Assembly (NCBI RefSeq): GCF_009749465.1
Contig: NZ_WBIS01000001.1
Span: 930,001 to 994,000 of the forward strand
Source of the DNA: Agromyces terreus
GTDB lineage: Bacteria > Actinomycetota > Actinomycetes > Actinomycetales > Microbacteriaceae
DNA length: 64,000 nt
Reading direction: 5' to 3'
The translations under genes and the position numbers were made by a program. Below the pieces are notes generated by a model. It was not told the origin of the DNA. It saw only the letters and a list, made by a program, of their open reading frames with translations, and did not search any database. Below are positions 25,191 through 31,457 of this stretch, piece by piece (the stretch's first letter is position 1; the number at the start of each line of letters is the position of its first letter).

Positions 25191-27269
<2,079 letters not shown>

Positions 27270-27415
27270 GTCGACCAAGCCTACTGAGCACCGCCGACCG
27301 CTGAGTGCAGGCGCTACGCGCTGAGCGAAATGCCCGACGCAAGGGAAGGACTCGGGCCCGCGACGTGCTTTCATTGATGAACGGAATTCGCGAACGTGAG
27401 CCAGGAGGAGGAGCC

Positions 27416-27646
27416 ATGACGCAGTACACCGAAACCAACGGTGCGGTCGAGGAACTCGAGACCCCGTACGAGCTCACCGCGCTCGATCGCTGCGACGCAT
27501 GCGGTGCCCAGGCGTACATCCGCGTGGTCGTCGGCAGCGGCGAACTGCTGTTCTGCGCCCACCACGGTCGCAAGCACCAGGAGAAGCTCTCGCAGATCGC
27601 GCACAGCTGGCACGACGAGTCCTCGCGGCTCAACGAGCGCCCCTGA
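27416..27646 (+). CDS. Small zinc-ribbon protein, DUF7455-like
   Basis: 76 aa. Core CDACGAQAYIRVVVGSG then LLFCAHHGRKH: two CxxC/CxxH half-sites suggesting one structural zinc. The C terminus is amphipathic helix. Function unknown; short proteins of this kind are common next to core genes in actinobacteria. A very strong AGGAGGAG precedes the ATG, so it is likely well translated. Followed by a large palindromic terminator. Confidence 0.82.
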   Translation: MTQYTETNGAVEELETPYELTALDRCDACGAQAYIRVVVGSGELLFCAHHGRKHQEKLSQIAHSWHDESSRLNERP

Positions 27647-27838: not shown

Positions 27839-28582
27839 TCAGCCGGGAGCGTCGGCGACGCCGGCGGCGGCGATCTGGGCTCGGCAGGCGGACTCGGCGT
27901 ACGCGTCGACCGCGCGGGCCTGGTCTCCCGCCTCGTAGGTCAGGCCCGCACGATCGGCCATCGCGGAGAGCATGCGATCGGCGAGGAAGGGGTTCTTCGC
28001 GAGGACCGGACCGTGCAGGTGCGTGCCGATGACCTCGCCCATGACGACGCCCTCCTGCCCTGATCCGCGCCCATTGCCCTGTCCTGCCCGCACTCGGCCG
28101 AGCGGCGAGCCTTCGGCGCCGACGTAGTCGCGGGCATGGTTCTCGAAGCCGACGAGCACACGACCGCTGCCCCGCTCGGCCACGACGAGGTCTTCGGTGA
28201 CGCGGGCACCGGCACGAGGCACCGCTCGCCCGGGCAGGATGCCGAGTCCCTCGACCGTGGTTCCGTCGGGGCGCTCGATGCCCCAGGAGAGCAGCTCCCA
28301 CCCGGTGCCGACGGCGAGGATCGGAACGCCCTCGGTGCCCCAGCGCCGAAGCTCGTCGTGGAGCTCCAGCAGTCGTCCGCGACTGCGTTCGAGGGAGGCG
28401 TCGCTGCCGGAGCCGAGCACGACGGCGTCGACCTGCTCGGGAAGATCGGCGCGAGACTCGACCGCGACGACGCGCGCATCGAGACCGGCCCACGCGGCCC
28501 GACGGGCGAGCACGGCGGCGTTCTCGGCATCGCCGTTCGTGTTCTGCAGCGACGGCACGAGCGTCACGATGGTGAGGGTCAT
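27839..28582 (-). CDS. gatD: GatD-like amidotransferase subunit without the catalytic cysteine
   Basis: 247 aa, class I glutamine amidotransferase fold of the MurT/GatD lipid II isoglutaminyl synthase. Conserved: GSGSDASLERSRGRL, GFENHARDY, and the catalytic-His motif THLHGPVLAKNPF (His190). The nucleophile elbow, usually V-C-x-G-[YF]-Q, is V91-G92-T-G-W-E: Gly92 (codon GGC at 28309-28307) replaces the Cys. The only Cys is near residue 233. It should not hydrolyse glutamine. ATG overlaps the murT stop (ATGA). Role inferred as a structural or repurposed partner of MurT. Confidence 0.85.
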   Translation of the reverse strand: MTLTIVTLVPSLQNTNGDAENAAVLARRAAWAGLDARVVAVESRADLPEQVDAVVLGSGSDASLERSRGRLLELHDELRRWGTEGVPILAVGTGWELLSWGIERPDGTTVEGLGILPGRAVPRAGARVTEDLVVAERGSGRVLVGFENHARDYVGAEGSPLGRVRAGQGNGRGSGQEGVVMGEVIGTHLHGPVLAKNPFLADRMLSAMADRAGLTYEAGDQARAVDAYAESACRAQIAAAGVADAPG

Positions 28583-29835
28583 TCCGCTCCCGTGAGTCCG
28601 AGGTGAGCGCGCGTGCGCCGCATCGAATCGGCCGAGAAGACGATCGTCTTCGTGCCCGACGCGGGCGGAGGCGCCGCGAGGAAGTCATCGAGGGCGCGGG
28701 CGAGATCGGGCTCGACGCGGTCGATCTCGACGCCGTCGTAGGCCAGCATGAGCGCCGCCTCGGCGGCTTTGGAGCCGGACACGATCGAGACGCGACCGAG
28801 CGAGGAGGCGTCGGTGGGCCAGAAGTACGACGGATCGCGCACGTCGGAGCCGATGGCGAACAGGATGTCGCTGGTGCCCGGCTCGATGCTGTCGACGTTC
28901 AGCTGATAGCTGGCGGGGTTCTGCACGAGCACGAAATCGACGTCCTGATCGCGGACGCGCACTCGCTCGCCGCGGCCGAACACGGCCGGGATCGCGCTCA
29001 GTGCGTCGGCCGCGGTCTTCGCATCGAACCGCTCGCCGAGCAATGCCTTCGCGGTCGCATACGCCGCCGTGGCATCGACGCCGTAGTGGATGCCGCGCGC
29101 GGGCAGTTCGACGGTCACGTGCGTGCCGTGATCGTCGATCGTGCCGGATCGCCCGTCGACGGCGACGAGGCGCACGCCGCCCGCCTCCGGCACCCGTGCG
29201 ACCGTGGTCGCGGCGTAGCCGAGGCCGCGAGGCGCCGACGCGAGCACGGCGTCGGACACGCCGAAGCGGTGCACCGAGACATCCGCTCGGACCTTGTCTG
29301 CGAGACGATCCAGGTAGGCGTCGTCGGCGTTGATCACGACGGCCTCGTTCGCACGTGCCGCGATGCGTGCCAGCATGCCGGCCACCATCTCGGAGTCGTG
29401 GAAGCGGTCGATCTGGTCGACCATCACGTTCATCAGGGTGACGACCCGGGCATCGACGCCCTGCATGACGAGTGCGCCGTGTCCCTCGTCCATCTCGAGG
29501 ACGGCCATCTCGCCCGGGACGCGGCCCCGCCAGTCGGCGCGCTCGAGCAGCGCCGACGTGAGGCCCTGGCTGATGTTCGCGGTCGACGGATTCGTGAACA
29601 CGTCGACGTGATGCGCGCGCAGCACGGCCACCAGCATCTTCGTCGTCGTCGACTTGCCGCTCGAGCCCGACACCACCACGAGGCCCTGCGGGAAGCCCGA
29701 GAGCGTGCGCTTCAGGTAGTTCGGGGCGATGCGATTGACCACGAGGCCGGGAACCGCCGATCCGCCGCCCGCCTTGCGCAGCCGGGCGGCGAATCGGGTG
29801 AGCCTGCCGACGAGGATCGCCGGCGCATAGCGCAC
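28579..29835 (-). CDS. murT: MurT-like Mur ligase without the zinc-ribbon cysteines
   Basis: 418 aa. Mur-ligase central domain with a P-loop of unusual spelling, VVSGSSGKSTTTKML (residues 55-69; normally T-G-T-N-G-K-T), Mg/substrate segments NPSTANISQGL and LEMDEGHGAL, and a DUF1727-type C-terminal domain with DVRDPSYFWPTD. Typical MurT carries a four-Cys ribbon in the middle domain; this protein has no cysteine at all. MurT normally activates the D-Glu alpha-carboxyl of lipid II with ATP for amidation. GTG start 7 bases after the sigA stop. Confidence 0.87.
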   Translation of the reverse strand: MRYAPAILVGRLTRFAARLRKAGGGSAVPGLVVNRIAPNYLKRTLSGFPQGLVVVSGSSGKSTTTKMLVAVLRAHHVDVFTNPSTANISQGLTSALLERADWRGRVPGEMAVLEMDEGHGALVMQGVDARVVTLMNVMVDQIDRFHDSEMVAGMLARIAARANEAVVINADDAYLDRLADKVRADVSVHRFGVSDAVLASAPRGLGYAATTVARVPEAGGVRLVAVDGRSGTIDDHGTHVTVELPARGIHYGVDATAAYATAKALLGERFDAKTAADALSAIPAVFGRGERVRVRDQDVDFVLVQNPASYQLNVDSIEPGTSDILFAIGSDVRDPSYFWPTDASSLGRVSIVSGSKAAEAALMLAYDGVEIDRVEPDLARALDDFLAAPPPASGTKTIVFSADSMRRTRAHLGLTGAE

Positions 29836-29842
29836 CGCCGGC

Positions 29843-31117
<1,275 letters not shown>

Positions 31118-31457
31118 TGGTGAACCTCTCCTACATCGCACGGCGCAGCCCCCGGAGGGGTACGGGTCGTGGTGGCCCGAACGTTTTCGGACACTATGAG
31201 GACCCATGTCAAGTCCGCGATGTGCTCGCACGAAACCGTGCACGCGGACCAGAACGGGTCCTTCCCCCATTATACAGGCGCGGCGCACCGTTCCCGTACA
31301 CGTCCGGCAGCGCGTCGCCCGTGCCCGACCCGCACGCGCCCGCCGACCTGCATGGTGCAACGACGGCAGCGTCGCAGACATTCCCCTCGGAGCGTCCGGC
31401 GCGCACGCGGCATCCGCGCTCCACCGCCAGACACCGTGCCCGGCCGAGCGCCCTCGC
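31118..31457 (-). promoter_or_regulatory. sigA upstream region
   Basis: 340 bases without a gene. On the minus strand a perfect TATAAT lies at 31274-31269 (CTGTATAATGG), predicting a leader of about 145 nt. A perfect TTGACA lies at 31212-31207, but I cannot find a -10 at correct spacing behind it. A small inverted repeat, CCGAA/TTCGG, lies around 31177-31190. No terminator for the upstream PAC2 gene is obvious. Confidence 0.45.

Follow-up and report, generated by a model that had tools for sequence, protein, structure and literature searches.

What does a MurT-GatD pair do once its glutaminase subunit has lost the catalytic cysteine? The question is raised by a window of 64,000 nucleotides from Agromyces terreus, in which a murT-like gene (28579..29835) and a gatD-like gene (27839..28582) follow each other on the minus strand, their reading frames overlapping by 4 bases. 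MurT-GatD is the lipid II isoglutaminyl synthase of Staphylococcus aureus, Streptococcus pneumoniae and Streptococcus pyogenes. The Agromyces pair shares its gene order, folds and ATP/Mg residues but lacks the nucleophile Cys of GatD; such pairs are termed Cys-less below, and those with the residue Cys+. It is proposed here, with slightly better than even confidence, that the pair arose from lipid II isoglutaminyl synthase, works as an ATP-dependent amide ligase and joins to D-Glu the residue that begins the group B peptidoglycan bridge. Papers are cited by PMC accession, each for the available part of its text; genomes, loci and families carry our own handles (G, L and f).

The GatD-like protein (247 amino acids) was assigned by fold and alignment. 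Its AlphaFold2 model has a mean predicted local distance difference test score (pLDDT) of 95.9, and its nine best PDB fold matches are all GatD chains, with a template modelling (TM) score of 0.86 to 6gs2_A. The MurT-like protein (418 amino acids) was modelled with a mean pLDDT of 90.5, and its lowest PDB E-values belong to MurT chains. The TM-score of this model was 0.69 to closed MurF (4qdi) versus 0.49-0.64 to MurT chains, perhaps because its domains were modelled in a closed state. A class I amidotransferase fold and a Mur-ligase fold are encoded here by adjacent genes, and neither product reaches the NCBIfam equivalog cut-offs (99 of 450 and 81.7 of 400 bits for GatD; 85.3 and 80.9 of 800 for MurT). 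A search of the Agromyces genome with PF08353 (MurT_C) at E<=0.001 gave a single match, the window's own, and no second MurT.

In the alignment, GatD Gly92 (codon 28307..28309, minus strand, like all codons of the pair given below) falls on Cys94 of S. aureus GatD, within the motif V-G-T-G-W-E. In S. aureus, the C94G replacement abolishes glutamine-dependent amidation (PMC3266927). An earlier note, made from the DNA letters alone, had called the pair a retired amidase, and judged by its sequence the pair has indeed lost the glutaminase function. The same note held that His190 and the rest of the fold remain; His190 (28013..28015) is aligned with S. aureus His189, and the fold is that of GatD. 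Arg127 (28202..28204) is kept as well. Its counterparts (R128 in S. aureus, R142 in S. pneumoniae) capture glutamine in the GatD of both species, as described in the cited structural work. The absence of Cys from MurT and its P-loop GSSGKSTTT (GSSGKSTT at 29644..29667, with Ser at position 58) were also read correctly.

The loss is not a sequencing error, as the note had argued. Genomes of Microbacteriaceae (150), of the order (198) and of the class (197) were searched; the order and class samples include some Microbacteriaceae, and only part of their matches was fetched. After score and length limits and the removal of same-genome, same-sequence repeats, 275 pairs were compared, all genome and locus counts here and below ignoring relatedness. 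Outside Microbacteriaceae, the GatD Cys is present in 93 of 94 pairs, in which His is kept too, versus 17 of 181 inside. The other 164 pairs of the family are Cys-less, including all 55 named loci (28 from Agromyces, which are the closest named relatives of the window's GatD, and others from Cryobacterium, Leifsonia, Microterricola and Glaciibacter). The sole Cys-less pair among the 94 outside the family (L353 in G400, family f43) has Asp at the Cys position, and His is present. Over all 165 Cys-less pairs this position is occupied by Gly (78%), Ala (10%) or His (5%), and the GatD His is found in 119 of the 164 Cys-less pairs of Microbacteriaceae.

Clade 1 and clade 2 of the Cys-less pairs separate in a quick tree of 94 MurT rows and never occur in the same genome of the 150-genome sample; clade 2 has lost the GatD His as well (12/12 rows). 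By genome, the only pairs are Cys-less ones of clade 1 in 88, clade-2 pairs in 12 and Cys+ pairs in 14, and 3 have both Cys+ and clade-1 pairs, which lie at different places (L104/L105 in G124, L106/L107 in G054, L109/L108 in G066). A MurT match with no usable GatD was obtained in 4 genomes (G038, G081, G099, G144), which were counted as MurT-bearing and as neither Cys-less nor Cys+; the remaining 29 are pairless. Two independent losses of Cys were considered and are not claimed, as the approximately unbiased (AU) test does not reject a single Cys-less clade (p 0.352). The pair is maintained under selection: the median pairwise ratio of nonsynonymous to synonymous substitution rates (dN/dS) in the 28 named Agromyces loci is 0.27 for GatD and 0.21 for MurT, over 241 and 213 gap-free codons. 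A Cys-less pair is also retained in a genome of 0.93 Mb (L115).

In 24 of the 29 pairless genomes, the GatD alignment gave partial matches of low strength (7e-9 at best); those read among L184-L194 look, judged by eye, like other class I amidotransferases. Sub-cut-off matches to PF08353 occur in 3 of the 29. No extra Mur ligase in place of the pair was seen in 8 pairless genomes: 7 of these have 5 Mur_ligase_M matches and G139 has 6, compared with 6 to 8 in 17 pair-bearing genomes of the family. As a separate observation, very divergent GatD-like partners adjoin MurT-like genes in small genomes (L183/L252 in G005, L248, L249, L250).

The loss of Cys is accompanied by changes at other positions, which were sought as residues conserved in the 110 Cys+ pairs, to which Microbacteriaceae contribute 17, and replaced in the 165 Cys-less ones. 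The roles of these positions are taken from structures and biochemistry (PMC6085368, PMC5871853, PMC6113224, PMC3266927). In GatD, they are Tyr16 (the plug), Gly58 (the oxyanion hole) and positions 117, 120, 151, 153 and 188. Position 16, which lies between the GatD site and the MurT opening (S. pneumoniae Tyr30; PMC6085368), is Tyr in 100% of the Cys+ pairs and Asn in the window (28535..28537); the oxyanion-hole Gly (S. aureus G60) is replaced by Ser58. In MurT, the changed positions include Thr58 (P-loop), Arg139 (gate), Asn251, Asn254, Asn329 and Gly332, among others. Position 58 is Thr in 99% of Cys+ pairs and Ser in 90% of Cys-less pairs. Arg139, found in 100% of Cys+ pairs, corresponds to Arg135 of S. 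pneumoniae, which flanks the gate towards GatD, and is Val139 in the window (29419..29421). Residues 250-254 (29074..29088) have Tyr251 and Asp254 for the Asn pair (Asn270 and Asn273 of S. pneumoniae) and have gained His250. Among 97 clade-1 rows from outside the named loci, Tyr and Asp stand at these two positions in 87 and 94, and His250 in all 97. The two Asn residues probably contact adenine, and from the sequence the nucleotide used by clade-1 MurT may be other than ATP. Residues 329-336 read GSDVRDPS for NADGRDxS (28828..28851), a stretch likened to the MurE lysine motif, in which Asp334 (S. aureus D349) is kept.

The ligase residues of MurT are intact: K61, N87, E114, D116, E117, N136, R288 and D334 are kept in 97 of 97 clade-1 rows. 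Arg127 of GatD is retained in 100% of Cys+ pairs, 96% of Cys-less pairs and 93 of the 97 clade-1 rows. The earlier note had GatD kept as a structural or amine-guiding subunit; that it is kept agrees with this retention and with the dN/dS values. The MurT shifts hold mainly for clade 1. Clade-2 rows retain Thr58 in 12 of 12 and, where read, Arg139, Asn251 and Asn254, except in L090, L092 and L183; clade 2 loses Asp334.

The zinc ribbon of MurT is a different matter. The window's MurT has zero Cys and hence no four-Cys ribbon, and the earlier note had counted this among the changes linked to the loss of the GatD Cys. This link was rejected, since ribbon-less MurT stands alongside Cys+ GatD elsewhere in the order, in no fewer than five further families (f3, f4, f6, f12, f18), while the Cys-less clade-2 pairs L089, L090 and L092 retain four ribbon Cys; in most other clade-2 members the ribbon region lies outside the extracted sequence. 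The four-Cys ribbon is in any case not universal among MurT proteins (PMC6113224). In clade 1, the ribbon was probably gone before the Cys, because this clade groups in the tree with ribbon-less Cys+ families.

The location of the pair separates the Cys-less loci from the Cys+ ones. Upstream of murT in the window, on the same strand, lies a gene which we take to be sigA (29843..31381, minus strand, start codon uncertain). Downstream of gatD, a small conserved open reading frame (ORF) of 113 amino acids on the opposite strand (27305..27646, plus strand) is followed by a topoisomerase gene, presumably gyrB/parE (25191..27374, minus strand, start uncertain). Among loci with enough flank, a same-strand sigA precedes the pair in 113 of 115 clade-1 and 10 of 11 clade-2 loci, versus 0 of 16 Cys+ pairs within Microbacteriaceae and 1 of 37 elsewhere. 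The downstream gyrB is found in 100 of 118 clade-1 and 8 of 11 clade-2 loci, versus 0 of 15 Cys+ pairs in the family and 0 of 5 elsewhere.

The same interval was read in 16 of the 29 pairless genomes and in 4 Cys+-only genomes. In the latter, the small ORF and gyrB come straight after sigA (4/4); such an empty slot occurs in 2 of the 16 pairless genomes. The 16 pairless slots contain CofE-like genes (13), ATP-grasp genes (11), a split racemase (9), EctB-like genes (2) and MurJ-like genes (2), and one of them (L369) has a solute-binding protein. EctB is a diaminobutyrate (DAB)-making enzyme. Its slot homologues, DAB transaminases, lie at L360:3102-4370 (minus strand) and L368:345-1667 (plus strand), and the MurJ-like genes, for a lipid II flippase, at L359 and L361:1029-2618 (plus strand); one protein of each kind was scored and lies above the EctB or MurJ cut-off, respectively. 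The ATP-grasp protein is of the ATPgrasp_ST family (PF14397, two scored). It accompanies the CofE-like ligase (L354:980-1999, minus strand) and some clade-2 pairs, and further slots with it are L087, L091, L093, L095 and L097.

The CofE-like protein of the slot (230 amino acids) scores 50.2 bits against PF01996 (cut-off 25) and 34.9 of 180.65 against TIGR01916. One protein was scored in this way, the others being found by tblastn, and the label rests on PF01996; a PDB sequence search gave no match. CofE activates a carboxylate with GTP and then joins an amino acid to it (PMC10861534), and a CofE-like protein is described in a streptococcal wall operon (PMC13059722). At E<1e-80, CofE-like genes occur in 21 of the 29 pairless genomes and in none of the other 121 genomes of the family, and in 13 of the 13 slots read from such genomes the gene sits in the slot. 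No CofE-like match of this strength was found beside any Cys-less pair in the 150 family genomes. Seven genera (g7, g9, g13, g58, g59, g77, g84) each have one sampled species with the Cys-less pair and one with the CofE-like gene. The hypergeometric values, 5e-14 (107 versus 21) and 6e-6 (91 versus 12) of 150 genomes, take genomes as independent and are descriptive only. The interval, in which CofE-like, DAB transaminase and racemase genes are for the most part mutually exclusive with the Cys-less pair, is most plausibly a bridge-building slot.

What the sequences show directly is that catalytic residues were lost, that other positions co-vary with them, that the ligase residues are intact, that the slot is fixed, that the alternatives nearly exclude one another and that relatives' slots hold racemase and DAB genes. 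The substrate, the amine, the way it takes through GatD and an equivalent role of the CofE-like ligase are inferred. MurT would still phosphorylate a carboxylate, most likely the alpha-carboxyl of D-Glu in the lipid-linked peptidoglycan precursor. GatD would no longer hydrolyze glutamine, yet could capture an amino acid via Arg127. The old ammonia path would be opened by the loss of the GatD Tyr plug and, in clade 1, of the MurT gate Arg, and the amine of the amino acid could reach the acyl phosphate through it. In the product, D-Glu would carry on its alpha-carboxyl the amino acid with which the group B bridge begins, in B2 types a D-diamino acid; a racemase could supply its D form. In some other Microbacteriaceae, the CofE-like ligase at the same slot would carry out this step instead.

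To our knowledge, all Microbacteriaceae have group B peptidoglycan. For individual taxa, B2-gamma peptidoglycan is reported in Agromyces aureus (PMC5217419) and Subtercola (PMC5945732), B2-beta in Rhodoluna lacicola (PMC4156110) and a B-type in Leucobacter chironomi (PMC4511665); the wall of Agromyces silvae contains DAB, Ala, Gly and Glu (PMC11294650), and that of Clavibacter michiganensis is B2-gamma with DAB as the bridge residue (PMC9603630). The bridge-residue ligase had already been suggested in the earlier note. The slot context, with its CofE-like ligase, racemase, DAB transaminase and MurJ, fits it; a strict match between group B and Cys loss does not hold, as 17 Microbacteriaceae pairs keep the Cys and 29 of the 150 genomes are pairless.

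Several findings weigh against the bridge-ligase proposal. D-Glu amidation is reported in the group B bacterium C. michiganensis (PMC9603630), contrary to the strict claim of the earlier note that the D-Glu of group B walls cannot be amidated. The S. aureus C94G variant retains ammonia-dependent amidation at pH 8.5 (PMC3266927), so the loss of Cys alone does not imply a new amine. MurT need not change at Thr58, Arg139 and the two Asn when the Cys is lost, because most clade-2 rows keep these residues, and no single new GatD pocket is evident, because positions 58, 151, 153 and 188 vary within clade 1. The exclusion of the CofE-like gene is not strict: of three weaker matches, that in G147, a clade-1 genome, lies on another contig, and the two in G053 and G123 lie beside clade-2 pairs, being divergent CofE-like genes (36-39% identity) that adjoin ribbon-bearing pairs without Cys and His (L090, L092). 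Neither alternative is present in 22 of the 150 genomes, namely 14 Cys+-only genomes and 8 without a pair or a strong CofE-like match (two of these, G022 and G146, are 87% complete); if all 22 are group B, another route must exist. A racemase is missing from the window's own slot, and only one Alr-type match was obtained in the Agromyces genome.

Part of this evidence would suit an ammonia-dependent amidase, in which MurT amidates D-Glu with free ammonia and GatD acts structurally or allosterically. Carbamoyl phosphate synthetase I (CPS I) of mammals is a precedent, its dead glutaminase domain being kept in such a role; like the window's GatD, this is a class I glutaminase domain retained without Cys, though it has no Mur-ligase partner, and the CPS I structure 5dou is a distant fold match of the window's GatD. 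Besides the activity of C94G and the amidation in C. michiganensis, GatD was still needed when the MurT reaction was driven by ammonia (PMC6085368), and both MurT Asp334 (97/97 in clade 1) and, in 119 of 164 pairs, GatD His190 are kept. However, Arg127 would be needless in a pure scaffold and is nevertheless kept in 96% of the Cys-less pairs, the slot alternative belongs to an amino-acid ligase family and relatives' slots hold a racemase or DAB transaminase, and the clade-1 changes extend beyond GatD to the MurE-like motif and the adenine site of MurT. An ammonia amidase is considered unlikely.

The amino acid could also be a cap outside the bridge, glycine or another residue borne as a side group by the D-Glu alpha-carboxyl. 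Glycine at this carboxyl is a known structure in the A3-gamma wall of Intrasporangium calvum (PMC3035309), and the patchy distribution of the pair would suit an optional modification; the DAB transaminase, racemase and MurJ genes in relatives' slots point instead to the supply of a D-diamino-acid bridge and make the cap rather improbable. Action on another carboxyl, for instance on the bridge diamino acid or in some other polymer of the envelope, appears very improbable: D-Glu is a proposed substrate, and clade 1 has changed its nucleotide-site Asn residues too, but all 97 clade-1 rows keep the residues of carboxylate activation (Asn87, Asp116, Glu117). A decaying relic, to which the lost catalytic residues and the 29 pairless genomes might point, is scarcely credible in view of the Agromyces dN/dS values, the MurT catalytic residues kept in 97 of 97 rows and the pair retained in the 0.93 Mb genome.

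Besides lacking the nucleophile, the proposed bridge ligase departs from lipid II isoglutaminyl synthase in its oxyanion hole, in the plug and the gate Arg, in the Asn pair of the adenine site and in the MurE-like motif; Arg127 and Asp334 remain in common. It would share acyl-phosphate chemistry with MurE and MurF, but the window's MurT has no UDP-binding N-terminal domain (its P-loop is at residue 57), is paired with a GatD-like gene and presumably acts on the alpha-, not the gamma-carboxyl of D-Glu. S. aureus MurT is reported to stand in for MurE in vitro, giving a UDP-tripeptide, as 'data not shown' in that source (PMC3266927). CofE, the F420-0:gamma-glutamyl ligase, belongs to a different protein family; its relatives in the slot would catalyze the same kind of reaction. 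MurT-GatD has also been described in archaea (PMC11915815).

A wider reading, held somewhat below even confidence, is that the sigA-gyrB interval is a wall-bridge cassette slot that sets the group B bridge. Non-homologous amide ligases would interchange there (Cys-less MurT-GatD of two lineages, CofE-like and ATP-grasp), together with a two-part racemase and DAB transaminase. If so, Cys-less MurT-GatD would stand as the first enzyme known to start the group B bridge, an ammonia channel turned into an amino-acid route, and two named candidate ligases and a chromosomal address for the remaining bridge genes would be at hand. No assignment of the enzyme attaching the group B bridge to D-Glu was found as far as the literature searches reached, and no prior report that connects MurT-GatD or CofE with group B walls was found in the literature searched, most subscription journals being outside it. 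Congener pairs differing in the slot ligase make the group B bridge question testable. With this pair, nature also provides a plain example of a glutaminase partner retained after the loss of its nucleophile, with a residue-level list of the accompanying changes.

The split racemase of the slot consists of two alanine-racemase-like genes, found at L361:4945-6556, L125, L107, L232 and other slot loci and in 28 of 152 clade-1 loci altogether. Among slots read end to end, it occurs in 15 of 130 in clade 1, where ATP-grasp occurs in 1; in clade 2 (n=9), ATP-grasp occurs in 5 and a CofE-like gene plus racemase in 1. This count takes only reads from sigA to gyrB and drops long slots, so that the racemase share is a lower bound. 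At 33 two-frame loci, the long subunit has the pyridoxal phosphate (PLP)-lysine motif in 29 and the Ser-Tyr motif in none, and the short, C-terminal-only subunit has the Ser-Tyr motif (VSYG) in 18, many of the other 15 being short partial matches. From these sequences, the split racemase looks like one site shared by two chains.

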